Below are positions 29,485 to 54,200 of a stretch of DNA of 64,000 bases, piece after piece (position 1 is the first letter of the stretch; each line of letters begins with the position of its first letter). A model generated the notes under the pieces. The model was not told the DNA's origin. It was given only the letters and a program-made list of their open reading frames with translations, and ran no database searches. Both the position numbers and the translations under genes were made by a program. Source of the stretch: Collinsella aerofaciens (GTDB lineage Bacteria; Actinomycetota; Coriobacteriia; Coriobacteriales; Coriobacteriaceae); assembly GCF_028209625.1 (NCBI RefSeq), contig NZ_JAQLDU010000008.1, forward strand, positions 46,283 through 110,282. Reading direction: 5' to 3'.

Positions 29485-29531
29485 AAAACGCAACAAACAA
29501 GAGAACGGCGCAGAGAACGGTTGGACAGCGA

Positions 29532-29629
29532 GCGAGTCCCAGGCGTGGCGAGGTGCCTTGAAAGAGGAGGGCATAGGGCTTTTGCCCATGCCCGACGATT
29601 GAAAGGCAGATCGTCCGTCTGGGGCTCGC
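29532..29629 (+). ncRNA. Structured RNA candidate between the oxidoreductase and hypA
   Basis: Four helices can be drawn: an 11-bp closing stem GCGAGTCCCAG / CTGGGGCTCGC (29532-29542 with 29619-29629, one G-U), AGGC/GCCT (29541-29558), GGGCAT-A-GGGC-TTTT-GCCC-ATGCCC (29569-29593) and GACGAT/ATCGTC (29594-29615). The multibranched fold ahead of hypA looks like a cis-regulatory leader. It does not match a riboswitch class I can name. 29485-29674 has no gene. Confidence 0.45.
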
Positions 29630-29644
29630 GCAGCGTCAAGTCGA

Positions 29645-29666
29645 CCGCCGTTCGTTAGAACGGCGG
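29645..29666 (+). promoter_or_regulatory. Hairpin abutting the hypA ribosome site
   Basis: CCGCCGTTC and GAACGGCGG form a perfect 9-bp stem with loop GTTA. Its 3' arm runs into the GGAAGA that serves as the only ribosome site for the GTG at 29675, so folding could limit hypA translation. Confidence 0.5.
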
Positions 29667-29674
29667 AAGAAAAA

Positions 29675-30094
29675 GTGCATGAATTAGGAATCGTCTATCA
29701 CATCATTCGCGATGTCGAGAATGTGGCGCGCGCCAATGGCGTGAGTCGCGTTTCGAACGTGACGCTGCTCCTGGGCGAGGTCTCGGGCGTCGTTCCCGAT
29801 CTGCTGCTTGATGCTTGGCGCTGGGCGGCAGATAAAAAGCCTATCACGCAGGGCGCGGAGCTTATTGTGGAGCCTGTCGAGGCCGTGACGCATTGCGAGG
29901 CGTGCGGCTGCGACTACGCGACGGTCGAGCACGGCAAGACCTGCCCCCATTGCGGTAGCGGCGAGACCTATCTGCTGCAGGGCCAGGAGGTCATGATCAA
30001 GCAGATCGAGACCCCCGACGAGGACCCGACAGACGCTGCCCCCGACGGCCTATCCGATGCCGTCGACGCCGCCAACCCCCTCCACATCGCCTAA
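29675..30094 (+). CDS. hypA: Hydrogenase nickel-incorporation protein HypA
   Basis: 139-residue nickel chaperone for [NiFe]-hydrogenase (or urease) maturation. The N-terminus MHELG carries the nickel-binding His2. The zinc site is CEACGCDY ... CPHCG (about residues 73-94). A 30-residue acidic C-terminal tail extends beyond the usual HypA end. The start is GTG (29675). No other hyp gene or hydrogenase is adjacent, so it may serve enzymes elsewhere or connect to the upstream oxidoreductase. Confidence 0.9.
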   Translation: MHELGIVYHIIRDVENVARANGVSRVSNVTLLLGEVSGVVPDLLLDAWRWAADKKPITQGAELIVEPVEAVTHCEACGCDYATVEHGKTCPHCGSGETYLLQGQEVMIKQIETPDEDPTDAAPDGLSDAVDAANPLHIA

Positions 30095-41642: not shown

Positions 41643-42656
41643 CTATCCCCTAAATTCAAAGGTGCTCAGGCCAAACGTCAGCAGATCGCCGTTGCGCAGC
41701 GGGCAGCGCGTAATGCGGCGGTTGTTGACGAGCGTGCCGTTGGTGGAATTGAGGTCCTCGATCGACCAATCCGAGCCCGTAAAGGTGAGCTGGGCGTGGC
41801 GGCGCGACACGTTGGGGTCGCGCAGGGCAATATCGGAAACCGAGCGCTCGCGACCGATAGTCACCTGTGCGGAGGTGATGCTATGGCTCTCGCCGCTCAC
41901 GACGTCGACGAGCTGGGCGAGCGGGCGCTGCGGGGCGCGAGTGCTCGCCATGTTGGAGGCGATGCCGGCTGCGGCGCCTAGGCCCACGGCGGCACCGGTC
42001 GCGGCGGCTCCGCCCATGCCGGCAAGCGCGTCGCGCGAGACGGTCTGCGGCACCGGGATGGGTGCGGCGGCGGGGTCGGGGACGCTAGGCGCGAAGGGGT
42101 CTGCCACGGCAAGCGGGTCGGGAGCGGCGGCGCGAGGCGTCGGCTGCTGCTGGGGCATGGCGGCGGGGCGCTGCTGCTGCGGGGCAGCAAACTGCTGCTG
42201 GCCGGCGCGCGGGGCGCTGGCGGCACGGCTTGCCGCGGAGTTGTTTTGGCCCAGACCGTTTTGATAGGCGCGCTCTTCTTCGTACAGGCGGCCGAGCGTG
42301 GGGGCATCGACGTTCTCGGCAAAGACCGAGAACTTGCCGGCGCGCAGCTGCGGATCGATCATAAAGCGCACGAGGGGCTCGCCGACAAAGACATAGCGGC
42401 GCTTTTCGGCCTGCGCCTTCACAAACTCGCGGACCTCGCGCGAAAGCTCGGGGTAGAACGGGGCGAGCATGGGATCGTCGTCGGCGGCGATCAGGATGGT
42501 ATAGAGTGCCGGCGCCGTGTTGACGCCGTTGATCACCAGAGTCTGATCCTCCATGTCGCGAGCGGCCTGCTTGGCAAGCTTCTTAAAGGAGAACGGGGCA
42601 CGGGTGGCACCGAAGATGCCGGCCACGTGGTCCTCGAAGATGTTCAGGAAGTTCAC
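41643..42656 (-). CDS. DUF3662/FHA-domain protein (FhaA type)
   Basis: 337 residues. The N-terminal DUF3662 domain is recognisable (MNFLNIFEDHVAGIFGATRA, FYPELSREVREFVKAQAEKR). A Pro/Gln/Ala-rich linker (about 140-240) leads to a C-terminal FHA domain (VTIGRERSVSDIAL, VSRRHAQLTF, EDLNSTNGTLVNNR). In mycobacteria FhaA binds the phosphorylated MviN/MurJ pseudokinase and regulates lipid II export. The GTG start overlaps the upstream kinase stop (GTGA). Confidence 0.9.
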   Translation of the reverse strand: MNFLNIFEDHVAGIFGATRAPFSFKKLAKQAARDMEDQTLVINGVNTAPALYTILIAADDDPMLAPFYPELSREVREFVKAQAEKRRYVFVGEPLVRFMIDPQLRAGKFSVFAENVDAPTLGRLYEEERAYQNGLGQNNSAASRAASAPRAGQQQFAAPQQQRPAAMPQQQPTPRAAAPDPLAVADPFAPSVPDPAAAPIPVPQTVSRDALAGMGGAAATGAAVGLGAAAGIASNMASTRAPQRPLAQLVDVVSGESHSITSAQVTIGRERSVSDIALRDPNVSRRHAQLTFTGSDWSIEDLNSTNGTLVNNRRITRCPLRNGDLLTFGLSTFEFRG

Positions 42657-44506
42657 GAAAGATCACTCTCCGTATAGGTTCTTTGGTATCCGAGCAAATA
42701 TAGGCATATCCCAACGATTATAGAGGATAGGGTTCCCGCAACCGCCGCCTTGGCGACGACCGCGGCTGCAAGGCTGGCAATTTCCATATGGTGTGCAAGA
42801 CAGGACGCCGCTGCGCAGCCGATGCCGGCGACAGCGATGGCGGCGATTACGGCAAGGTTTGAGCCCTGATCGGCACGCTTGGCATGGGCGTTGAGCAGCG
42901 CAGATGACGCCGCGGCAGTTGCCGCTACCAGCACAAAGGCAGCCCAAAGGAGTGGGTCTCCCAGCGCTGCGGCAACGTTACCGAGCCCCAGCACGCCTCC
43001 GGCTGAAAGCGCGACCGTGGCCAGACGGGCAAAAAGTGCGCCCATGCCCGTTGCCGCGGCGGCGCTTGCCGGGCCGAGCCAAAATGACGCGACGCCGGCG
43101 GTGACCCCAGCTGCCAGGAAGGTATTGCCGGTCAGACAGCCAAGCGCGAGTGCACAGGTGAGTGCGGCGCTCGCGGCAGCCTCGGTGCGACCCCAGGCGA
43201 TCCACCAACCGGACATGGCGGCGGCAAAGATCACCGCGACGGGCAACATCGACAGGACGCCCTGTGCCTGCATGGTGGCGTTTGCCATGAGCACCAAAAA
43301 GCCCACAGCCGAGATGGCCGAGCCAATCTGGGGGGCCAGGCCGGCCGCCGCTCCGATCGCGATAGCCGCAATGACCAGGCCGGGAAGCGCCGCGACGCCG
43401 GCCGTCTGCATCAGCAAAAAGCTAAAGGCGCCGCACGTTAGCGCCGAGATAGCGTGCATGGCGTAGTCGCGCGCATGGCTCCAGCGCGTGCCTGCCCAGC
43501 CGAGTGCGGGGTCGACTTCGATGGTGTCGTCCTCGTAGTGCGACGGCTCGATATCGTCGAGCTCCTGCTCGTCATCCGAAAGTTCGCCAACCATTTGCTC
43601 CAGGCTGCGACGGCCTTCGCGCACGCTGCCCAGACCGGCAAGGAGCTGGTCGCAAAATGCCTCGATGCTGTTGGGGCGGTCCTGCGGCATGGGGGAGAGC
43701 GCGCTCATGAGCGCGGCCTCGGCTCCCGGGGGAAAGTGTGGTATCAGCTCGCTGGGATAGGTGGCGCCGCCGATGATGCGGCCGAGCGAGTCGGCGGGCG
43801 TGGCCGCCATAAAAGGAGCGCTGCCGCACAGGCCCTCGTAGATCACACAGGCGAGGGCAAAGACATCGGCGCGCTCGTCGACCGTGCCGGTCTCGATATC
43901 GAGCTGCTCGGGCGGCATGTAGCCGATGGTGCCGCCGCGTGAGCCGCCAAAGCCACCGGCGGACGACAGCCGCGCCATGCCAAAGTCGGTGAGCTTTACA
44001 TTGCCCGAGTGGTCGATGAGCACGTTGGCGGGCTTAATGTCCAGGTGGAGTACGCCATTACTGTGGGCGAAGGTGAGCGCCTGGCCCAGGGCATCGGCAA
44101 TGGCCGCGGCCTCGTCAAAGGTAAGTGAGTGGCCGTCCGCGCGGTGCAAAAACTCGGCCAGCGACATGCCATCGACATATTCCATAACCAGGTAGGCATA
44201 GGCTGTGTCGTGCGTAAAGTCGATGACCTGCACGATGTTGGGATGTTGAAGCATGGCGGCAGTGTGCGCCTCGCGCAGGACATCCATGATGTCGCTAGCG
44301 GGCATGCCGGCACCGTTGATAAGGGGGATGCGTTTAATGGCGACGCGGCGGCGCAGGTGCGTGTCGCGGCAGATCTCGATGGAGCCAAAACCGCCGGTCG
44401 CAAGTGTCTCGAGCGGCTGGTACCGCTTGAGCAGCTCGCGAGAGCTGGTGCCCTCCAAAGGAACGTCCGGCGAGAACCGGGCGGTATGTTGCGAGAAAAG
44501 CGGCAT
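42653..44506 (-). CDS. Ser/Thr kinase with multi-pass membrane C-terminus
   Basis: 617 residues. The kinase domain (about 25-290) has LATGGFGSIEICRD, RRVAIKRIPL, HLDIKPANVLID (HLD in place of HRD), LTDFGMARL and GTIGYMPPEQ. After an acidic linker come about seven to eight hydrophobic helices (about 370-610), an arrangement unlike PknA or PknB. It is the first gene of the operon and overlaps fhaA by 4 nt, so it takes the place pknA holds in mycobacteria. ATG 44506 follows GAGGG by 7 nt. Kinase activity is likely because Lys, Asp and Asn are intact. Confidence 0.85.
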   Translation of the reverse strand: MPLFSQHTARFSPDVPLEGTSSRELLKRYQPLETLATGGFGSIEICRDTHLRRRVAIKRIPLINGAGMPASDIMDVLREAHTAAMLQHPNIVQVIDFTHDTAYAYLVMEYVDGMSLAEFLHRADGHSLTFDEAAAIADALGQALTFAHSNGVLHLDIKPANVLIDHSGNVKLTDFGMARLSSAGGFGGSRGGTIGYMPPEQLDIETGTVDERADVFALACVIYEGLCGSAPFMAATPADSLGRIIGGATYPSELIPHFPPGAEAALMSALSPMPQDRPNSIEAFCDQLLAGLGSVREGRRSLEQMVGELSDDEQELDDIEPSHYEDDTIEVDPALGWAGTRWSHARDYAMHAISALTCGAFSFLLMQTAGVAALPGLVIAAIAIGAAAGLAPQIGSAISAVGFLVLMANATMQAQGVLSMLPVAVIFAAAMSGWWIAWGRTEAAASAALTCALALGCLTGNTFLAAGVTAGVASFWLGPASAAAATGMGALFARLATVALSAGGVLGLGNVAAALGDPLLWAAFVLVAATAAASSALLNAHAKRADQGSNLAVIAAIAVAGIGCAAASCLAHHMEIASLAAAVVAKAAVAGTLSSIIVGICLYLLGYQRTYTESDLS

Positions 44507-44665
44507 GGCCAACCCTCGTGCGTTTAAAGTTCGTTTGCGAGCGGCGGGCGCGGGGCCGAGCCGTTCGCGGTGGCATAGATGCTGCTAGTGTAGCACGCTC
44601 GGGCAGATGGCGAGGATAGCGGGATGCGAGGTGGCCCGATCGATTCGGCCCGTTTCGGCTCGTTT

Positions 44666-44803
44666 GGAAAGCGCATCTCAGTTTTCAGCCAAATTATGGG
44701 ATGCGCTTTCCAAATGGGGTGGGCTGCGGAAACTGCATCCCAGAATATTGCCCTGGAACGGGATGCGCTTTCCGAACCGGCGTCCAAAAGGAAACCGCAT
44801 CCC
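44666..44803. repeat. 62-bp-period palindrome array, second locus
   Basis: Half-units GGAAAGCGCATC (44666), GGGATGCGCTTTCC (44698), GGAAACTGCATCCC (44728), GGGATGCGCTTTCC (44760) and GGAAACCGCATCCC (44790) alternate in orientation. Steps are 32, 30, 32, 30, so the full period is again 62 bp. The region 44507-44945 has no gene; it separates divergent transcripts. Confidence 0.85.
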
Positions 44804-44945
44804 GCTTTGATGTGGGGACTGCGAACAAAAGCCGGACCGTGATCTGGCGCGGATTGGAGTTCGCCTGAATCATTGATGCTGGCTGGTGTGAGAACAGAGA
44901 TAAACGAGCGGCTCGAGCGATATAATGACACGCTATGGAGGCCGT

Positions 44946-47081
44946 ATGCTCTTTTCCCGCCGTTCTGCTACATTTGCCTGCGCCATTGCGCTTGTCGTAA
45001 TGGCGGTCACCCCTTATCACCGGTTTTCATCTTCAATCGGCCTAGCGTCAGGTGCAATGACCTGGCTCGTTATCCTGGGCGCATGCCTCGCGGCGTTTGT
45101 TCATGGTGCTGCGCTATGCAAGGGGGGAATGAGAAGGCCGAGGCATCTCGGTGCCATCGGTGTTTTCCTTGGTGTTATTGCAACGGTTCCCGAATGGGCC
45201 GACCTGGCTTTCTATGCTCGCGGAGACTCTATTCCAATCGTGTTTGCACCGATTTGGTTGTTACATGGCGTTTCGTGTGTCTCGTGCTTTGTTGGGTCGC
45301 TGCTTCTCTCATATGTTATTTGGGGCACGGCGGACTCTCCTTTGACGCAGAGGTCGACACGGACTGACGAAAGGGAAACTCGTCACCCGCAGGACGCGAT
45401 TTTTACAGAAACAATAGCCGTCATGTCTTGCCTGCTGTTTTGCTGTCGAGTTTCATGGAGAGTCGTTCCCGAGCCATGGGGGATGCCCCCTGTAACGGCC
45501 GCGTCAATTGGCCTTGCGCTTTTAATTCCGTTGGTCTATCTCGCATTGACTGTGGCCCCGCCGTTTTGCCGCCCTCGTGCCTTTGGCCATGGGCGGCGCG
45601 ACGTGTTTGCCTGTTCTGTGCTCGTAGCAGTTCCTATTGGTCTTATTCCGGCTGTTGAGGCGGCATACTTCGCAAGCGATGCCGTGGTCATTGCATTGCT
45701 GGCGATGGGGTCCGTTATCGCTGCTGCCTTCGTATGCATGTTGCTAAGGGGGAAACGGGACAACAATTCGGATATCGCCTGTGCGTCCGACACATTCGAT
45801 GCGGGGGTGTTTTCCCCTGCCCTGTCGCCTAGAGAAGAGCAGTTTGTTCGACTGCTGCTCAAAGGGAAAACGCCGGCGGAAATTGCCAAGGAGACGGATA
45901 CGAAGCCATCGACGGTGAGAACAACGCTTCACCGAGCATACGGGAAGGCGTCGGTTGCGGGCTCACGCGAGCTCGTGGCGCTGTTTGCGGGTGAGGGCGA
46001 TACTGTAGGGCATGAGCTACCGCAGCGGCATGCTGACGATATAGTGGCATCAGCTCGAACGCGCCGGCTGTTTCGATACCTGCTCACATTATTCTTTATC
46101 CTCCTTGCGGCGGGGCCCTTGGTAATGGCGGATAGCGATTGGGGGTCCGGTGTTTCGCGGGCTGTCGCCTTTTCCCTCTTAAGCTACGCATTGGGTCTCG
46201 GACTGCTTCTGTCGCTACGCTACGCGGGTGGAAAAGCGAATCGTGGCGCTGCGCTGGATAGAGCGGGTGAAGCGATTTGGCTCGGAAGCCCGTACGTATG
46301 GGCGGTGCTATCTGCTGTGGAATGGTCTTTTATCTATATCGCGGCATTGATGTGCATACGCGTTCCGTTGATGGCTGTGCCGGTCCTGTTTTGCGGCGTG
46401 GCGTCTACGGCTTCGCTCGCTGTTGGGCTGCGTCCGTTTAAGGTGCATGCCCATGCTCGGGCTATCGTGCCGTTGGTGTCAATGGGCATGGTTGCCTTAA
46501 TCTATGCGGTCGCTAGGGGGCGAATCCATGGACTTGCGGTGCTGACGGGGGTGCTGCTCACATATATAGTGATGCGAAGCTGTCCGCAGCGCAAAATGCT
46601 TGGGATATGGATGCTTTGCTTCGGGGCGACGGCTCCTGTTTGGGCTGTCTTGCTCAATATGGTGCAGGATCTGACGGTTTTCGAGCCGTTGTTCCTCGCG
46701 TCGTTGTTGGGGCAAAGTTCGGCTGTCAATGTCGTCGTGGCAACGGTGATTGTTTGCTGGTCTGTGCCCATGTTCGTTACGCACATCGCGCTCGCCCGCT
46801 CGGTTGAGGACGAGAAGGCCGTCTTGGAGTACCGGACGAACGGGTCCACCGAAACGGCCCGCGTGCGCCAGCTGGCCCTGCTTACGTCGCGCTCCCTTTC
46901 TGATGTTCAGTCGCAAATTTTGCTGATGACGGCAGAGGGGGCAACGACAAAGGCCATTGCGGAGGATGTCGGTTACGCTGCATCTACGGTGCAAGCGCTG
47001 CGGTCTGCATCTTACCGCCAGTTGAAGATCAAGAATAAGGCGGAGCTAATTTTATTGTTATCGCAGGTAAATAACGTGTAA
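44946..47081 (+). CDS. Membrane protein with two LuxR-type HTH domains
   Basis: 711 residues in two similar halves. Half 1 has about seven hydrophobic helices (1-265) and a LuxR HTH (ALSPREEQFVRLLLKGKTPA, STVRTTLHRAYGKA, about 290-345). Half 2 repeats this: about eight helices (375-620) and an HTH at the C-terminus (SLSDVQSQILLMTAEGATTK, ASTVQALRSASYRQLKIKNK, about 650-703). Membrane-LuxR proteins are common in Coriobacteriia, but usually with one module. No receiver domain is present. GGAGG lies 5 nt before the ATG at 44946. It precedes the secreted-protein/ABC genes and is the likely regulator. Base composition is less GC-rich than neighbours. Confidence 0.8.
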   Translation: MLFSRRSATFACAIALVVMAVTPYHRFSSSIGLASGAMTWLVILGACLAAFVHGAALCKGGMRRPRHLGAIGVFLGVIATVPEWADLAFYARGDSIPIVFAPIWLLHGVSCVSCFVGSLLLSYVIWGTADSPLTQRSTRTDERETRHPQDAIFTETIAVMSCLLFCCRVSWRVVPEPWGMPPVTAASIGLALLIPLVYLALTVAPPFCRPRAFGHGRRDVFACSVLVAVPIGLIPAVEAAYFASDAVVIALLAMGSVIAAAFVCMLLRGKRDNNSDIACASDTFDAGVFSPALSPREEQFVRLLLKGKTPAEIAKETDTKPSTVRTTLHRAYGKASVAGSRELVALFAGEGDTVGHELPQRHADDIVASARTRRLFRYLLTLFFILLAAGPLVMADSDWGSGVSRAVAFSLLSYALGLGLLLSLRYAGGKANRGAALDRAGEAIWLGSPYVWAVLSAVEWSFIYIAALMCIRVPLMAVPVLFCGVASTASLAVGLRPFKVHAHARAIVPLVSMGMVALIYAVARGRIHGLAVLTGVLLTYIVMRSCPQRKMLGIWMLCFGATAPVWAVLLNMVQDLTVFEPLFLASLLGQSSAVNVVVATVIVCWSVPMFVTHIALARSVEDEKAVLEYRTNGSTETARVRQLALLTSRSLSDVQSQILLMTAEGATTKAIAEDVGYAASTVQALRSASYRQLKIKNKAELILLLSQVNNV

Positions 47082-47190
47082 ACGCCTGAGCAATCAACTC
47101 AATAGCGGGTGTTTACAGACATCTTTCTCTATTCATGCGAAGGTTGCCGTGCGTCGACGCATTGTTAACCGCTTTTGATTGGAGAAGGCC

Positions 47191-47703
47191 ATGATTAAGC
47201 CAAGGAGCGCTATTGCTCGAATCGGAGTCGGCTTGGTGATTGCAGCTGGTCTGTCCCTAGGGGTTCCCGCTGCATCGTTTGCACAAGAGGAGTTTGACAC
47301 CTCTCAGGTTTCCAGCATTACTCAAAACGCCGATACGGGAATTACGACCTGTACGAACAATGCCGATAAGGCATTTAGTTTTCAATGTGCCGGGACGAGT
47401 GCAACTGGCTACCGTCAAAAGGATGATTCCTCATCGCTCTATCTGGATATCCAGGGCCATACGGGAAATCCGCTTCGGTTATATACAGACGGTGCGTATA
47501 ACACAAGCGGTAGCGGCAGCATGAATTGTACTCAGGGAACGTATCGTTCGAATCACAAGGGACAGTGGGAAATGTATAACCTCGTCCGTGAGAACGGGCG
47601 ATCTGCGGCGCGACTGACTGCATGGGCGGAGTCTGGCTACGGCACTGTTATTGGCGTATGGAGCCCCGACTGCGTCGGGCATTTCCACAAGCTTCCCGCA
47701 TAG
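47191..47703 (+). CDS. Secreted four-cysteine protein beside an ABC transporter
   Basis: 170 residues. A clear signal peptide (basic MIKPRSAIARIG, core VGLVIAAGLSLGVPAASFA) should be cut after residue 31. The mature part of about 139 residues has four Cys (TTCTNNA, FQCAGTS, MNCTQGT, SPDCVGH) that could form two disulfides, many Ser/Thr/Asn/Tyr, and ends HFHKLPA. The RLTAWAESGYGTVIGVWSPD region recalls small secreted DUF2712 proteins encoded next to ABC transporters in bacilli, from memory. GGAGAAGG precedes the ATG. A bacteriocin, signal or surface protein is possible; none is proven. Confidence 0.7.
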   Translation: MIKPRSAIARIGVGLVIAAGLSLGVPAASFAQEEFDTSQVSSITQNADTGITTCTNNADKAFSFQCAGTSATGYRQKDDSSSLYLDIQGHTGNPLRLYTDGAYNTSGSGSMNCTQGTYRSNHKGQWEMYNLVRENGRSAARLTAWAESGYGTVIGVWSPDCVGHFHKLPA

Positions 47704-47757
47704 TTGTTTGAAATGGCTCCCTTCCGGCTTTCTGGGTCGGAAGGGGGAGGAGGACGT

Positions 47758-48639
47758 ATGAACCAAAAGCTCGCAAGATACGAACTGTCGAAAACGATTA
47801 GACGTCCAGCTTTTATCCTTGCTCTCTTGATTGCGGTCGCAGTTGCAATAGCTGCCGCGCTGGAGCCGTGGGCAAATTTGGAAAAAGAGCGCCACAACCT
47901 TCTTTCTTTTGGTTACGGCGTTGGCGTGCAAGCCGAAAATTATCTCGGTCAAACACGTGAAAGCAGCTTCGGTAACTGGATTGTTGTGAGCGCGAACGCG
48001 CCACTGTCTGCGTCGGTGTTTTTCTATGCACTGCCCCTGCTTGCAATGTTGGCTGGATCTTGGTCGTGTCTCTTTGAGCGTTTGAGTGGTTATGACATGC
48101 AGATATGCACGCGCGTTTCCAGAAAGGCGTACGTGAACGTAAAGATGCTGTCTGCTTTCCTCTCCGCGTTTACAGTGACTGCCATTCCTCTGCTCGTCAA
48201 TTTCCTGATCGTCTCGATGCTTTTTCCTGCGTATCTTCCTCGGGTCGATGAGTCGACTTACGTAGGACTTTACCTGCATAGCTACTTCTCCGGTCTATTT
48301 TATTCGCATCCTTTGTCATATGTGCTCGCATACACGCTGTTCGATGCTGTCACGCTCGGGACTTTATCCATGGCTGTAACTGGCTTCTCAATTTTGTTTC
48401 GTAGCAGAATCAAAGCGATAATTGTCCCGTATCTGCTAATGGTTGCGTGGCATTTTGCAAATGGCTGGATCTTCGGCGTAATGGCTTGTGTGGGGTTTAA
48501 CTGCAATATCCTCAACAGCATCAGGTCGGAATCGCTGAATAACTGGCCAGACATTCGAGCCGGTTTTGCGGAAATCATATTATTGACCCTTGCTTCGTTG
48601 GCTTTTTCTGGGGCGTGGAAAAGACGCGAGGTGGTCTGA
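47758..48639 (+). CDS. ABC transporter permease 1
   Basis: 293 residues, about six hydrophobic helices (near 18-36, 95-115, 130-150, 180-200, 215-240, 275-290). The N-terminus NQKLARYELSKTIRRPAF resembles ABC-2 type permeases that start with a soluble amphipathic helix. GGAGGAGG precedes the ATG. Its stop overlaps the next start (TGATG). With the following permease and ATPase it makes one exporter or self-protection transporter. Confidence 0.75.
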   Translation: MNQKLARYELSKTIRRPAFILALLIAVAVAIAAALEPWANLEKERHNLLSFGYGVGVQAENYLGQTRESSFGNWIVVSANAPLSASVFFYALPLLAMLAGSWSCLFERLSGYDMQICTRVSRKAYVNVKMLSAFLSAFTVTAIPLLVNFLIVSMLFPAYLPRVDESTYVGLYLHSYFSGLFYSHPLSYVLAYTLFDAVTLGTLSMAVTGFSILFRSRIKAIIVPYLLMVAWHFANGWIFGVMACVGFNCNILNSIRSESLNNWPDIRAGFAEIILLTLASLAFSGAWKRREVV

Positions 48640-49475
48640 TGCTGTTTAGGCTGGTCGCCGCGGACCTGAGGACCGTTTTGAAGAAGAACATCATCACTTT
48701 TATTGCAATTGCGGCAGTGACCGTTGCGAACTTGGTGTACGCCTACGGATTGTCTTCTGTGTATGGGGTTAGAACGGATACCTTGGGGTTTGCGGATAAT
48801 CTTGCGCTCGTGTTTGCCGGATCTGCTCCGTTTGAGCCTAGGCCCGGGGTCATGTTTGTGCCTCCGCTAGGATGGCTATTTCTCATTCTGCTTATTCTCT
48901 ATACAACACTCGACTATCCGACCGAATCGTTGCACGGGTTTGGTTTGCAAGCGCTTGTTCGATGCCGGGCAAGAACCCTTTGGTGGGTCTCGCGTTTTAT
49001 CTTGGTGGCGGCAGTAACGGCATTTTCACTGCTCGTGGTGGTTTGCTCTGTTGTGATTTGGAGCTTGGTGGTGAGCTCCTCGTTCAGCGCGGTCATTCAT
49101 GGTGAGTCGCTTCAACTGGCTAATTTGGCGCCGTGGTTTCTCAAAGCTGCCGAGGCAGATGCGCTGCCGTTTTTCATAGGTCTCTTATTTGCTTTTGAGG
49201 CGCTTGCGTTTGCGCAGGCAGCGGTTGGGTTTGTGCTTGGGTCGTCAGTCTCGTTTGTGGTTTTAATGAGCTACCTGATCTGCTCGGCATATGCACGACA
49301 TTGGGCGCTATTGGGTAACGCCTTGATGCTGTTGCGCTGGGGTGGAATTGTCAAAGAGGGAATCGCGGCGGGCTCGAGTGTCTTGTCATCAATTGGGCTT
49401 ATGTCGTTATGCCTATCGTTGGGTGGACTGTGGTTTCGAAGGGCCGACCTTATAGAAAAGGGGGACAAGATATGA
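48639..49475 (+). CDS. ABC transporter permease 2
   Basis: 278 residues with about six hydrophobic helices and the same N-terminal layout as permease 1 (LFRLVAADLRTVLKKNIITF). The two permeases are only distantly alike. The stop overlaps the ATPase start by 4 nt (ATGA). Probably a heterodimer with permease 1. Confidence 0.75.
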   Translation: MLFRLVAADLRTVLKKNIITFIAIAAVTVANLVYAYGLSSVYGVRTDTLGFADNLALVFAGSAPFEPRPGVMFVPPLGWLFLILLILYTTLDYPTESLHGFGLQALVRCRARTLWWVSRFILVAAVTAFSLLVVVCSVVIWSLVVSSSFSAVIHGESLQLANLAPWFLKAAEADALPFFIGLLFAFEALAFAQAAVGFVLGSSVSFVVLMSYLICSAYARHWALLGNALMLLRWGGIVKEGIAAGSSVLSSIGLMSLCLSLGGLWFRRADLIEKGDKI

Positions 49476-50116
49476 GTGTGATCGTAAGGGGCGTATCGAA
49501 GCGCATGGGTAAAAACGATGTCCTGCGCAACGTGTCCATCGAGGTTGACCCTGGGACTGTGGTCGGGCTTCAGGGGATAAACGGTTCGGGTAAGACCATG
49601 CTCATGCGAGCGGTTTGCGGGTTGATCAAGCCTACCGAAGGCGAAATCTCTATCGATGGCCAAAGGCTTGGGGCGGACATCTCGTTCCCGCCGAGTCTGG
49701 GGATGTTGATCGAGGCGCCTTCCTTTTTGGGATATCTGTCTGGCTACGACAATCTGAAGCTCATCGCTCAGATCAAGGGCGTTGCCACCCCCGAGGACAT
49801 TCGCTCTGCCCTGCGGCTCGTGGGGCTCGATGCAGACGAAAAAAAGAAGTTCCGAGCATACTCGCTTGGGATGAAGCAGCGTCTGGGGATAGCTGCGGCA
49901 ATTATGGAGAAGCCGAAGCTGCTTGTTCTCGATGAGCCAACGAATGCCCTCGACGAAGCGGGCGTTGAAATGCTCAAGCGCGTTGTGGCGATGGCGGCAT
50001 CAACGGGTCGTGAGGTCCTTCTGTCCAGCCATGACGGAGAGGTGCTCGAGGAACTGGCCGATCGGGTTTACTGTATGCGCGACGGTGCCGTTGTGAAAGC
50101 TCGGGAAAGGTCGTGA
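49472..50116 (+). CDS. ABC transporter ATP-binding protein
   Basis: 214 residues. Walker A GINGSGKTMLMRA, signature YSLGMKQRLGIAAAIM, Walker B LLVLDEPTNALDE and switch His in LLSSHDGEVLE are all present, and the protein stops soon after the core, as in BcrA/LolD-size ATPases. It energises the two permeases. Its overlaps with both neighbours show one translational unit. Confidence 0.92.
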   Translation: MSVIVRGVSKRMGKNDVLRNVSIEVDPGTVVGLQGINGSGKTMLMRAVCGLIKPTEGEISIDGQRLGADISFPPSLGMLIEAPSFLGYLSGYDNLKLIAQIKGVATPEDIRSALRLVGLDADEKKKFRAYSLGMKQRLGIAAAIMEKPKLLVLDEPTNALDEAGVEMLKRVVAMAASTGREVLLSSHDGEVLEELADRVYCMRDGAVVKARERS

Positions 50117-50781
50117 GCGCGATGAAGAAGACCCTGTGGACGAGAAGATCGGCGCTCGCGCTTTTTTGCTGTGCTGCTGCCGGCCTTGCGGGCATGAGGG
50201 TGAGCGTCGTTAACGGGAACCGGACGGTCATTCCTGAGAAATATTACGCGGAGGGCGAATGGCTCTCGATGGATGGAGCGTTTCTGGGGTCGAAGGATGT
50301 GGTGACTGATGGGTATTCGTTTTGCATAGACGGGGCAGAGTTGCTCACGCCGCGCGAGTATCTCAAACGAGCACATGACGATTATTCAAAATATGGCACC
50401 GTGGATACGAAAACGAGACTGAAGGATGCCGACATCACGTGCGTTATCGCCGTAAAGATGCGTGTCAGAAATAGGGATAATATCGACGGTGGAATCAAAG
50501 CGTATGTTTGGCATCTGGTTCCGGAGTCTGCGCCAAACTATGATTTTGTAGTCAATACCGATCTGATAACGCAAGCCATGCCGGTCCTTGGCGGCTCTGC
50601 TGCGTTTGCCGTGGAGGTTGGGGCAGAAAACGAGTTGCTCGTCCCATTTATGATGCAGAACACCAACGACTATTTCGAAGGTTACGAGACCGTCCGTTTT
50701 GAGAAAGCAATTCCCGGGACTTACACGATGAAGATGACCGATCTGCCGGAGCGGAGGCTCTTAAGGTTTGAAGTGAAATAG
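50113..50781 (+). CDS. Exported or membrane-anchored protein of the ABC locus
   Basis: 222 residues from GTG 50113, or 219 from ATG 50122 (GGAAAGG upstream). Basic start (MKKTLWTRRSALALFCCAAA) and a hydrophobic core to residue 30; a cysteine pair lies in the core but no clean lipobox. The mature part (YAEGEWLSMDGAFLGSKDVV, DGYSFCIDGAELLTPREYLK) resembles the DUF5028 group of Firmicutes surface proteins, from memory. The start overlaps the ATPase stop. Likely immunity, sensing or substrate-handling partner of the transporter. Confidence 0.65.
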   Translation: MSAMKKTLWTRRSALALFCCAAAGLAGMRVSVVNGNRTVIPEKYYAEGEWLSMDGAFLGSKDVVTDGYSFCIDGAELLTPREYLKRAHDDYSKYGTVDTKTRLKDADITCVIAVKMRVRNRDNIDGGIKAYVWHLVPESAPNYDFVVNTDLITQAMPVLGGSAAFAVEVGAENELLVPFMMQNTNDYFEGYETVRFEKAIPGTYTMKMTDLPERRLLRFEVK

Positions 50782-50818
50782 CTCGAGAGCAAGGCAAAAC
50801 GGGTCCATTGGCGGTACG

Positions 50819-50858
50819 CGCGCCCGATTCCAGGCGCCCCGGCCCGGAATCGGGCGCG
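50819..50858. terminator. Strong hairpin between convergent genes
   Basis: CGCGCCCGATTCC and GGAATCGGGCGCG form a perfect 13-bp stem with a 14-nt GC-rich loop, between the ABC locus and the convergent YcxB-like gene. There is no T-run, so termination is inferred from position. Confidence 0.5.
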
Positions 50859-50886
50859 GGACGAGGCGCCTTCGGTGTCGGCCGGC

Positions 50887-51603
50887 CTACCGCTTCTTCT
50901 TGCTCTTCTTCTGCTTGCGCTGCTTGCCCTTGGTCTCCTGGGGCTTGTCGCCCTGTTTTGCTTCGGCAGCGGCCTTTTCTGCCTTCATCTTCTTGCGTTT
51001 GGTCTCGATGCGGAGTTTTTTGTTGATGCGCGCCTTAAGGAAGGGACCGAACTGCTCGGCATCGCCGCGGACAAAGGTGTCCTTAGGGATCGTCACGCCC
51101 TGGTCGGCGAACATGGCCACAAAGATGCGCTCGCCGTCGAGCACGTGGTCGAGCTTTTCAAACGGGAAGAACTGCGACTTGCCGCTCGTGCCCCAAACCA
51201 TCAGGCCGTCCTCGTTGGCGGCGACGCGGCGATAGCGGCCACCCATGGACTCGTCGGCCTCAACGGCGTCGATAAAGTCGCGGGCGAGGGTGTGGTGCAG
51301 GTTTTTGCTCCACCAGGCCAAAAAGGCGCCGAATACGATCAAGACGACGCCAAACTTGATCCAGTTGCCGCCGGCCACCAGCATGCCGATGCCGATGAGC
51401 GCGGCAATTGCCGCGGCGACATACAGCGAGCCGCGACGCCTGGGCGAGGCGACCAGGCGGGCGAAGTCGGTGACGAGGTCGTTTTCGTATTGGTACTCGT
51501 TGAGGTACAGGATGCCGTCGTCGGCTGCGGCCTGCTCCTCGAGCGCGACCTCGACCTGGTCGGCTGCTTCGGAGGGAACGAGGTTGCTCTCTGCGTCTGC
51601 CAT
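50887..51603 (-). CDS. YcxB-like membrane protein
   Basis: 238 residues. After an acidic N-terminus there are two membrane helices (about 62-95, SLYVAAAIAALIGIGMLVAG). The cytosolic part carries RYRRVAANEDGLMVWGTSGK and SQFFPFEKLDHVLDGERIFV, the pattern of YcxB-like C-terminal domains, and a long Lys-rich tail (KAKQGDK ... KKSKKKR). AGGAG precedes the ATG. Function unknown. Confidence 0.7.
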   Translation of the reverse strand: MADAESNLVPSEAADQVEVALEEQAAADDGILYLNEYQYENDLVTDFARLVASPRRRGSLYVAAAIAALIGIGMLVAGGNWIKFGVVLIVFGAFLAWWSKNLHHTLARDFIDAVEADESMGGRYRRVAANEDGLMVWGTSGKSQFFPFEKLDHVLDGERIFVAMFADQGVTIPKDTFVRGDAEQFGPFLKARINKKLRIETKRKKMKAEKAAAEAKQGDKPQETKGKQRKQKKSKKKR

Positions 51604-51719
51604 GCTCTTTGGACTCCTATCGCGGCGGGCTCGCCGTACGGGTTATTATGGAATGCAGTATGCCGTGCGACCGCATGGCCGCCGCGGCAACAAGACTCAG
51701 TATACCCGGGGGAGCACCC

Positions 51720-54200
51720 ATGGAATCGTTGTACCGAAAGTATCGCCCGCTCACCTTTGACTCCGTGGTGGGCCAGCAGCATATCGTCTCGACGCTCGAG
51801 CACGCCATCACCGAGGGGCGCCTGTCCCACGCCTACCTGTTCTGCGGACCGCGCGGCACGGGCAAGACCACCATGGCGCGCATTCTGGCCAAGGCGCTGC
51901 TGTGCCGCAATGCCGAGGCGGCGCGCGCCGAGGGTGCAAGCGGCTGCATGCCCGACGGTACTTGCGAGGAGTGCGAGCTCATTGCCGAGGGTAACCACCC
52001 CGATGTCTACGAGCTCGATGCCGCCTCCCGCACGGGCGTGGACAATGTGCGCGAGGAAATCATCAACTCCGTCAACTTTGCCCCGGTGCGCGGCAAGTAC
52101 AAGATCTATATCATCGACGAGGTCCACATGCTCACGACGGCGGCGTTCAACGCGCTGCTCAAGACGCTCGAGGAGCCGCCGGCACACGTGATCTTTGTGC
52201 TGTGCACCACCGACCCGCAAAAGATTCTGGAGACCATCCTCTCGCGCTGCCAGCGTTTCGATTTCCATCGCATCGGCAACGAGGATATCGAGCGTCGCCT
52301 GGCATACGTGTGCGAGCAGGAGGGCTTCGATTACGACGATGAGGCGCTGGCTATCGTGGCGCGCCATGCCAAGGGCGGTATGCGCGACGCGCTGTCCACG
52401 CTGGAGCAGCTGAGCGTCTTTGGCAACGGTTCTGTGCATGCGGACGACGCCCGCTCGCTTTTAGGCGAGGTTTCGGACCAGATTCTGGGCGAGTTTTCCC
52501 GCGCCATTGCCGATCGCGATGTTGCCGAGCTCTATGGACTGATCCGTGCGCAGGTCGAGGAAGGAAACGACCTGCTGGAGCTGACGCGCGACCTGGTGGC
52601 GCATGTGCGTGACGTGTACGTTGCCTGCGTTGCCGGTGCCCGTGCCGAGCTGTTTGAGGGCGGCTCCGAGCAGGCCGAGGCGCTTGCTGCCGAGGCCGCT
52701 GCCTTTGGCGAGCATCCTGCCGACCGCCTGGCCCGTGTGCTGACGGTGCTCGACGATGCCGCACTGGAGATGAGGGGCGCGAGCGACGTGCGCCTGGTGC
52801 TCGAGATCGCCTGCACGCGCCTGGCACGTCCCGAGGCCGATTTAACGATTGAGGCATTGGCCGAGCGCGTGGCCCGCTTGGAGGCCATGGTTGCCAACGG
52901 CGCCGTGCCGGCGAGCGTGGCTGCTGCTCAGGCCGCCGCGCCTGCAGCATCCGTACCCGCTGCTGCCCAACAGCCGACGCTAATTTCGGGCGCTCGTGCT
53001 GCCGCTCCGGCGGCATCCGCTGCCCCCGCTGCTACGTCCGCGCGCCAGGGCGGTATGCCTTGGGACCGTGGTGCTGCTGTTCCGGCTGCCCAGCCTGCGT
53101 CCCGTTCTGCGTCCGTGTCAGCTTCCAAGCCTGCAGCGCCTGCACCTCAGCCTGCGCCGACTCCGACGCCTCAGCCCGTTGCGGCTCCCGCGCCTGCCAC
53201 CGCTCCGGCACCTAAGCCCCAGTCCAACAATGCCGCCCAGGTTGCCGCCGCCGGTACTGCCGAGACGCCCGCGGTCGAGGATGCCGGAGAGCTGCAGCGC
53301 AAATGGGCCGAGGTTGTCGAGCGTGTCAAGGCGCGTCAGGCTTCCTACGCGGGGCTTTTGCTCAATGCCCGCGCCACGGCTGACGACGGCTCCAGGCTCA
53401 CGGTCTCGTTCCCCGCGGGCTCGACCTTTGCCATCAAGATGCTTGGACGCGCCGACACGCAGTCGGTGGTCCTGCCGACAGTCAGTGCGGTCTTCGGTCG
53501 TCGTACCGTCGACTATGTCCTGGATGGGGGTGGCACGCCGGCTCCTCAACATGAGGAGCATTCTCCATCTGCACGGGCTGCGGTATCTGCGGACCCGCAA
53601 CCCGTGTCCTCGGCGGCCCCTGCATCCTCGAGCGCCAGCGCGACGCAGCCAAAAGCAGCACCGATAGCGGCGCCGACCCCGTCGGCGCCTAAGCCCGTCA
53701 TGGCCAAACCGGCTGCTCCGACACCCGCGCCCAAGCCTGCCTCGCCCGCGCCCAAGTCGTCTGACCTGGGCAAAGCCCCCTGGCTGCGCTCCGACAACCC
53801 CGCCGGCGCTCCTGCCACGGGCAAGCTCCCGACCGAGCCCGCGCCCCGAGCGCCCGAGCGCGCGTCCGCTCCCAAGGCTCAGCCCGCCGCGCCGTCTGCG
53901 CCATGGGAATCCGAGCAGGTTCCCTACGACGATGCCATGGTTGGCGGTTTTGTTGCCGATGCTGGTGGGGACGATCTGCCTCCGTTCGACGTGCCGGGTG
54001 CGGCGTCCGCGCCCAAGTCCGCTGCAACTGCCCCCAAAGAGGAGGACGCTCCTGCAGCTCCCTGGGAGTCCAACTCCGGTGCGGGCGGCCCCTTCGGCCA
54101 TCAGGGTGCAGCCCCGAGCATCCCGCAGACCGAGGACGAGGCCAAAGCCCTCATCCGCAGCGTCTTCGGCCAGTCCACCATCTTCAAGCCGGTGGAGTAG
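51720..54200 (+). CDS. dnaX: DNA polymerase III subunit gamma/tau
   Basis: 826-residue clamp-loader ATPase. Motifs: RKYRPLTFDSVVGQQHIV, Walker A CGPRGTGKTTMARI, zinc cysteines in CMPDGTCEECE, Walker B IIDEVHMLTTAAFNALLKTL and the SRC motif LSRCQRFDFHRI. Residues 390-826 are mostly Ala/Pro-rich linker with a folded segment near ELQRKWAEVVERVKARQASY, which in tau binds the polymerase alpha subunit. GGGGGAG precedes the ATG at 51720. Together with ybaB and recR downstream it forms the classic dnaX-ybaB-recR group, here interrupted by one minus-strand gene. Confidence 0.95.
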   Translation: MESLYRKYRPLTFDSVVGQQHIVSTLEHAITEGRLSHAYLFCGPRGTGKTTMARILAKALLCRNAEAARAEGASGCMPDGTCEECELIAEGNHPDVYELDAASRTGVDNVREEIINSVNFAPVRGKYKIYIIDEVHMLTTAAFNALLKTLEEPPAHVIFVLCTTDPQKILETILSRCQRFDFHRIGNEDIERRLAYVCEQEGFDYDDEALAIVARHAKGGMRDALSTLEQLSVFGNGSVHADDARSLLGEVSDQILGEFSRAIADRDVAELYGLIRAQVEEGNDLLELTRDLVAHVRDVYVACVAGARAELFEGGSEQAEALAAEAAAFGEHPADRLARVLTVLDDAALEMRGASDVRLVLEIACTRLARPEADLTIEALAERVARLEAMVANGAVPASVAAAQAAAPAASVPAAAQQPTLISGARAAAPAASAAPAATSARQGGMPWDRGAAVPAAQPASRSASVSASKPAAPAPQPAPTPTPQPVAAPAPATAPAPKPQSNNAAQVAAAGTAETPAVEDAGELQRKWAEVVERVKARQASYAGLLLNARATADDGSRLTVSFPAGSTFAIKMLGRADTQSVVLPTVSAVFGRRTVDYVLDGGGTPAPQHEEHSPSARAAVSADPQPVSSAAPASSSASATQPKAAPIAAPTPSAPKPVMAKPAAPTPAPKPASPAPKSSDLGKAPWLRSDNPAGAPATGKLPTEPAPRAPERASAPKAQPAAPSAPWESEQVPYDDAMVGGFVADAGGDDLPPFDVPGAASAPKSAATAPKEEDAPAAPWESNSGAGGPFGHQGAAPSIPQTEDEAKALIRSVFGQSTIFKPVE

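Follow-up and report, generated by a model that had tools for sequence, protein, structure and literature searches.

Why should a membrane protein with two LuxR-type helix-turn-helix (HTH) domains stand at the head of genes for a secreted protein and an ATP-binding cassette (ABC) transporter? The question is raised by a six-gene island at positions 44946-50781 of a 64,000-nucleotide stretch of DNA (contig NZ_JAQLDU010000008.1, positions 46,283 to 110,282; hereafter the window) from Collinsella aerofaciens, a member of a common human gut genus. A sequence-only reading had taken the island for a self-contained secreted-signal or antagonism system with its own membrane-bound transcription factor. 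Our favoured answer, to which we assign a probability of roughly 0.55, is that the island was acquired horizontally and encodes bacteriocin-like antagonism together with a LanFEG-like transporter for self-protection; the two-headed LuxR protein would activate the cassette behind it. Judged by sequence comparison, the linkage of regulator and cassette, their insertion and the architecture of the operator between them appear well supported.

The regulator, its cassette and the operator between them

At related loci the usual gene order is regulator, secreted protein, a DUF5027-like exported protein (here called mid), permease 1, permease 2, ATPase and a DUF5028-type exported protein. Most relatives have this extra DUF5027-like gene, and the clade of the window, without it, represents a reduced form. 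The five-gene cassette (secreted protein, two permeases, ATPase and DUF5028-type protein) is conserved in Coriobacteriia and in Bacillota, where carriers include Amphibacillus, Bacillus niameyensis, Lederbergia, Dorea, Lachnoclostridium and others. The recurrence of the gene order at many loci indicates that the arrangement is more than chance. At the B. niameyensis locus (L068:6137-10147), three tandem pairs of a secreted DUF2712-type and a DUF5027-like protein precede one transporter.

Neighbourhoods were annotated with hidden Markov models built in this analysis, and 39 further stretches were added from permease 1 matches, the weakest of which were left out. We call a cassette classic if its permease 1 scores at least 185 bits and is followed downstream by permease 2, ATPase and a DUF5028-type gene. 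The classic set from Coriobacteriia comprises 39 distinct loci (five near-identical window copies are left out, and L112's second entry, being the L111 cassette, is not counted again), of which 37 are assessable once the contig-edge loci L038 and L119 are excluded. A two-HTH regulator lies directly upstream on the same strand in 27 of the 37, that is, in 26 by the script rule and in L102, whose regulator overlaps an over-long mid frame. Nine have no regulator there (L032, L033, L040, L103, L106, L110, L115, L116 and L118; L115 has a LuxR-type frame on the opposite strand), and in L113 the contig ends within the regulator, leaving one HTH visible. When close copies are merged (window/L060/L027; L030/L100; L035/L041; L112/L114), the regulator is found in 22 of 32. 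Permease 1 is more divergent in 19 loci (L120-L138), of which L137 alone has such a regulator, at a distance of 1.3 kb; none of the 13 Bacillota loci has one within the flanks examined. Near four Bacillota cassettes (L065, L068, L069 and L072) Pfam identifies a GHKL histidine kinase, and near three of these a LytTR response regulator, the fourth lying outside the LytTR search. In distant relatives the regulator is thus linked to the other five genes, the opposite of an outcome that the sequence-only reading had named as refuting it. Exclusivity to the cassette had to be rejected: regulators of this type are also present elsewhere in Collinsella, and they occur away from cassettes in L083, L087, L088, L092, L094, L095 and L097, and since they were drawn from the best GerE matches listed, there are at least seven.

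What ties the regulator to the cassette is a conserved element between them. Its core is a box, TGNYTACAKACR, located between the regulator and the first cassette gene and mostly starting 28-30 nt past the regulator's stop codon. In the window the right-hand box, TGTTTACAGACA, occupies 47110-47121 (plus strand), the sole such element there; an inverted left arm, TGTAAACG, lies at 47077-47084 and contains the regulator's stop codon TAA (47079-47081), and a -10-like hexamer, GAAGGT, is found at 47139-47144, 21 nt after the TACA of the box. A box score of at least 8.5 (of 10) is reached by 16 of 23 non-redundant cassette regulators, compared with 0.7% of 4000 random segments and with two of ten two-HTH regulators that stand away from a cassette or in second position, counts that are descriptive because the consensus was derived from the same sequences. 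The contig-edge locus L038, which has no visible same-strand regulator, carries a full box, and the other regulator-less loci score at most 8.0 (nine tested including L038; L118 left out).

Two checks are independent of the box consensus. The spacing of the -10 hexamer is fixed: NANNNT occurs exactly 21 nt after TACA in 17 of 18 loci and is off by one in the remaining locus, against at most 3 of 18 for any other spacing between 12 and 29. The arms covary: the box core recurs upstream in inverted form, at a distance of 33-35 bp in 17 of 18 best fits, and the arm pairs change together between loci (TGTAAGCG/TGCTTACA, TGTAATCG/TGATTACA, TGTAGACA/TGTCTACA). Arm matches number 119 versus a permuted mean of 107.9 (standard deviation 2.9), a value reached by one of 5000 permutations with kinship uncorrected. 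Arm fits are poor in L035 (5/8) and L108 (4/8), the latter having its own 14-bp inverted repeat with shorter spacing. The whole element occurs 21 times in 1.39 Mb (the window and related loci, some of them mutual copies) and 0.0 times per scan in five block shuffles. The right, promoter-proximal box overlaps the -35 position, which is what one would expect of an activator site. Taken together, operator and promoter architecture are consistent with activation of the neighbouring operon by the regulator, and with the linkage in 27 of 37 cassettes they bear out the earlier description of a self-contained island with its own two-HTH membrane regulator. A sigma-70 consensus scan gave three promoter-like sites versus 3.8 expected, none of them the proposed plus-strand promoter; one of the three, at 47082-47054 on the minus strand, overlaps the left arm. 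Operator and -10 spacing recur unchanged at L097:6654-10437, where a two-HTH regulator lies beside ABC transporter genes and there is no cassette. At L096:3969-11257, which has a second two-HTH regulator and ABC genes, two further operator elements were seen, one beside that regulator's start and one before an ABC gene, suggesting a wider regulon.

The regulator itself (44946-47081, plus strand, 711 residues; a start at 44925 is also possible) has two GerE (LuxR HTH) stretches in Pfam (E 3.9e-17), the best being the C-terminal one at residues 650-704. HTH1 covers residues 292-346 (45819-45983) and HTH2 residues 649-705 (46890-47060). Hydropathy indicates about eight hydrophobic helices N-terminal of HTH1 and seven between the HTHs, about 15 in total. 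The protein had been described as two modules of helices plus HTH in tandem. This holds for the HTHs, which are homologous (hhalign E 7.9e-17), and is unproven for the membrane blocks, whose homology is not detectable by hhalign (E 0.14), so that duplication of a whole membrane-LuxR module is unsupported for the membrane parts. All ten regulators first examined have two HTHs, the second HTH of L037 being weak. In L031, L091 and L105, HTH1 falls within the first 100 residues of the frame, and therefore the first membrane block is missing from the frame as called. In the aligned set the recognition helix of HTH1 keeps an Arg (17 of 17), and the matching position of HTH2 varies (Gln, Lys, Asn, Tyr, Ala). 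That HTH2 residue tracks operator base 3, being Asn in seven of seven sites with A and in two of 11 others (Fisher p 0.002, with kinship uncorrected and the position chosen after looking). A scan for covariation between HTH residues and operator bases involved up to 456 column-base tests with a smallest p of 0.0005, and columns 39 and 49 of HTH1 rank as high as those of HTH2; because of this the covariation is suggestive only. The two heads may grip the two sites, and any assignment of one head to one site would be similarly tentative.

Secreted protein, transporter and allele exchange

The first cassette gene (47191-47703, plus strand) encodes a DUF2712-type protein of 170 residues. By eye, it has a Sec-type signal peptide at about residues 1-31, with an AxA-like site before residue 32. 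A beta-sandwich follows at residues 60-170, and its GxWSPD motif is invariant among 35 aligned relatives. The four cysteines counted earlier are present, at positions 54, 66, 113 and 161. The window protein matches DUF2712 (PF10916) at 15.0 bits (E 0.039), below the Pfam cut-off of 22 bits; DUF2712 matches at E<=1 occur in 17 of 35 members of the secreted family (best 5.5e-7), and the 99% identical P0001 carries the precomputed label PF10916.15. Lactococcin_972 (PF09683) is absent from the 18 Pfam families to which the 35 secreted proteins have matches at E<=1. The weak fold matches include carbohydrate-binding modules; the lactococcin 972 structure 2LGN is not among the best 50 fold matches listed, which excludes nothing. 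A sequence search of the PDB (query A1) returned only fibrinogen chains (E 0.17-0.71), which we take as chance. A housekeeping wall protein, the other outcome that would have undermined the sequence-only reading, is rejected: the gene is accessory (matched in 11 genomes of the same genus, of 43) and lies inside an insertion absent from 16 relatives.

The transporter consists of permease 1 (47758-48639), permease 2 (48639-49475) and an ATPase (49472-50116), followed by the DUF5028-type exported protein (50122-50781), all on the plus strand. The best NCBIfam match of the ATPase is the lantibiotic protection ATPase TIGR03740, at 179.1 bits, below the cut-off of 309.75. In its Q-loop (GMLIEAPSF) Gln is replaced by Glu, a feature we take to be the 'E-loop' that marks LanF proteins, although our literature search, which turned up mainly articles on phosphatases, found no paper for it. 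We read the transporter as a protection pump because of the TIGR03740 match and because 70 of 71 cassette-type ATPase rows, all except L091, have this Glu, as opposed to none of the 25 rows that represent other ABC ATPases at these loci. With a secreted protein whose signal peptide, by eye, is of Sec type, the transporter looks more like a LanFEG-type protection pump than like an exporter of that protein. Permease 2 matches DUF2705 weakly (E 0.097, below the Pfam cut-off), and DUF1430, a seven-helix partner, has no match at E<=1 in the six window proteins. The exported protein has an N-terminal helix and an MPT63-like beta-sandwich. It matches DUF5028 (PF16431) at 22.4 bits (E 1.6e-4), below the cut-off of 29.9 bits; matches at E<=0.1 occur in 26 of 35 members of its family (best 1.7e-20), and the 98% identical P0048 is labelled PF16431.12 (precomputed). 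Thus, of the Pfam families expected from the sequence-only reading, GerE was recovered twice, whereas DUF2712, DUF2705 and DUF5028 all stayed below their cut-offs, with PF10916 and PF16431 labels on very close relatives.

Variation within the cassette is uneven. DNA identity between the window and L060 is 96% in the promoter region and 92-97% in the three genes behind permease 1, but falls to 73% for the secreted gene and 74% for permease 1, so that the drop is steepest, though not exclusive, in the secreted gene and permease 1, which vary jointly. Among the member sequences (summed), 413 of 2881 secreted proteins are shortened or frameshifted, as against 100 of 5046 exported proteins and 75 of 7433 permease 1 sequences, and the frameshifts of the secreted gene lie at more than ten positions. 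In a recount over all classic loci, 14 of 38 cassettes lacked a recognised secreted gene ahead of them; in one of the 14 a 52-residue remnant is left. Because of the joint allele exchange with permease 1, the excess breakage and the frequent absence, the evolution of the secreted gene appears toxin-like. Seven secreted variants (P0021, P0029 and P0031-P0035) have different backgrounds but change over, at almost one and the same point, to tails of about 25 residues that resemble each other, which suggests repeated insertion of one element.

Competing explanations

We favour a weapon with self-protection because of indirect evidence, namely the Q-loop Glu, the joint allele exchange and the breakage and absence of the secreted gene; we also count as support the tandem secreted/mid pairs of B. 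niameyensis, the GHKL genes near four Bacillota cassettes with LytTR near three, and the insertion and plasmid copy described below. In such a system, the DUF2712-type protein would leave the cell by the Sec route and act outside on competitors, most likely at their cell envelope. The ATPase and two permeases would form a LanFEG-like transporter shielding the producer, permease 1 would carry specificity for the cell's own secreted protein, and the membrane-anchored DUF5028-type protein would assist protection. The two-headed membrane LuxR protein would sense a putative signal and activate the cassette from the operator just behind its own gene, through two inverted sites 33-35 bp apart, the promoter-proximal one over the -35 position. 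A bolder version, possible but doubtful in our view, is that one membrane polypeptide with two different LuxR heads acts as a built-in dimer, gripping two inverted sites about three helical turns apart and, upon an envelope or neighbour signal, firing a new class of Sec-secreted beta-sandwich bacteriocin together with its own protection pump.

The same genes might instead form a secreted-signal system: the DUF2712-type protein would be an extracellular kin signal or co-sensor, to be cleared or perceived by the ABC transporter with the DUF5028-type protein, and autoinduction through the regulator would complete the loop. The adjacency of regulator and secreted protein fits this, as do the linkage of divergent secreted-gene alleles to permease 1 and the GHKL/LytTR genes near the Bacillota counterparts, a regulator type that serves peptide quorum sensing. 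We nevertheless regard signalling as unlikely: at about 139 residues, a folded protein would make a large signal; the secreted gene is broken or missing in many strains that retain the rest; and the window has no second element before the regulator, although L096 has one beside its regulator's start. Ranked somewhat below it is an envelope-stress or resistance operon, whose transporter and exported proteins would counter foreign antimicrobials, with the secreted sandwich as decoy or as wall- or sugar-binding helper. The resemblance to lantibiotic protection pumps would be explained, Cpr operons are described as having one ATPase and two different permeases (PMC5786555), and both the carbohydrate-binding modules among the weak fold matches and the 14 of 38 cassettes without a recognised secreted gene would find a place; but the joint allele exchange of secreted gene and permease 1 and the selective breakage of the former are left unexplained. 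The operator can be doubted separately, since its arms covary and the left one holds the regulator's stop codon in many loci, as would befit an RNA hairpin (attenuator or terminator) ending the regulator's message. This we consider the least probable of the alternatives, given that the -10 spacing is constant (17 of 18) and the arm spacing nearly so while the sequence between differs, that the arms lie upstream of the start site inferred from the hexamer, and that no T-run follows them in the window.

Insertion, spread and known systems

All six reading frames, their order and the tight packing of the last four genes (two overlaps, 1 and 4 nt, before a gap of 5 nt) were confirmed as claimed earlier, and so was the lower GC content: in 1-kb windows it is 50-58% over the island, compared with 63-70% across most of the adjoining kinase/FHA and dnaX genes. 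On the left lies a serine/threonine kinase/FHA gene pair (41643-44512), and on the right a small membrane-protein gene beside dnaX (50887-54200). The right-hand gene is matched in 23 of 42 Collinsella genomes, and the locus is well conserved in 21, the two remaining matches (L160 and L161) being distant. The island is present at five of the 21 (L139-L142 and L149). The other 16 (L143-L148 and L150-L159) are empty: 86-126 shared bases follow the kinase gene, and the right-hand gene comes no more than 56 bases later. Because of these empty sites we delimit an inserted segment at 44599-50886, with its left edge at 44598-44638 and its right edge at about 50886. Within the left end of the insertion (0.3 kb), repeats of GGGATGCGCTTTCC and similar forms are visible by eye at 44640-44830.

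In genome G024 the chromosomal site (L157) is empty, and a related copy is carried by NZ_CP084005.1, a circular plasmid of 29,994 bp from C. aerofaciens NBRC 114504; across the five cassette genes this copy and the window share 93-98% identity. Its regulator spans the start of the circular record (residues 1-277 at 29154-29987, residues 281-711 at 3-1295) and is not cut; the plasmid is typed non-mobilizable. The insertion is well supported by these sequences, and the plasmid copy fits a mobile, probably horizontally acquired cassette. Carriage by phages or widespread plasmids was rejected, permease 1 giving weak partial matches in three phage records and matches in two plasmid records, one of them the C. 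aerofaciens plasmid. The closest named relatives are Collinsella. Matches to the secreted protein occur in 18 of 148 relatives and, with an alignment as query, in four of 296 genomes sampled from across the phylum. For the exported protein 13 of 43 Collinsella genomes gave a match, and a profile of permease 1 matched in 52 of the 396 genomes searched in the class.

Among 14 control genomes only that of B. subtilis gives a DUF2712 match, and we take the DUF2712 protein to be YybN, of the yybN operon, whose transporter is YybJ2KL. YybJKL is described as an ATPase with two permeases of unknown function (PMC11466899), and the yybN operon, likewise called an operon of unknown function (PMC11841835), is thought to be horizontally acquired and is a Rok target alongside the sdp, sboA, sunA and yyd units (PMC2978689). 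The passages on the operon in PMC11466899 and PMC2978689 mention no LuxR regulator, and the likeness is drawn from descriptions of the operon. Lcn972-type systems (Lcn972, streptococcin B, mediterrocin) are described as pairing a signal-peptide beta-sandwich with an ABC ATPase and a membrane protein, and some strains keep the partner genes without a functional bacteriocin (PMC11796350, PMC12345188). The cassette resembles them in its secreted beta-sandwich with ABC genes and in keeping the partners when the bacteriocin is lost, but it has two separate permeases instead of one DUF1430 protein, and membership in lactococcin 972 is rejected, as there is no Lactococcin_972 or DUF1430 Pfam match. 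With LanFEG/Cpr it shares one ATPase plus two multi-helix permeases, TIGR03740 as best match and the Q-loop Glu; unlike them, it scores below the TIGR03740 cut-off and has no lanthionine gene among its six. In a comparison with the C2-like beta-sandwich of the XepA/YomS fold, XepA of prophage PBSX, a two-domain pentamer of a phage lytic cassette (PMC6834076), is 5% identical to the secreted protein, a match barely above the level of unrelated sandwiches.

Multi-helix membrane LuxR proteins are reported to be abundant in Coriobacteriia and mostly without assigned function; DadR, HcdR and CadR have 10-12 transmembrane helices, a C-terminal HTH and neighbouring genes thought to be controlled by them (PMC9734109). 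The island's regulator is likewise a multi-helix membrane protein with a C-terminal LuxR HTH (PF00196) next to putative targets, but it has two HTHs and 8 + 7 helices rather than 10-12 N-terminal helices and a single HTH, and it is linked to a secreted-protein/ABC cassette, not to a metabolic enzyme. No published description of the system was found among the matches listed for the DUF families, yybN/yybL, tandem LuxR and Collinsella bacteriocin/LuxR, and the cassette looks like an undescribed weapon-and-immunity system of many related bacteria. If so, Collinsella strains would have a transferable secreted weapon with allele-specific self-protection, yybN-type operons would be offered a function, and the defined operator, promoter and neighbouring genes would provide a test system for how membrane LuxR proteins reach DNA.

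Two other loci show related arrangements. At L028, the one locus examined in this respect, a gene for a C39-like peptidase (L028:11821-12549) follows the DUF5028-type gene. At L090:4951-11751, which has no DUF2712 or DUF5028-type match, a two-HTH regulator precedes genes for two small proteins with putative signal peptides and for a related ABC transporter, and this locus may represent a sister system.

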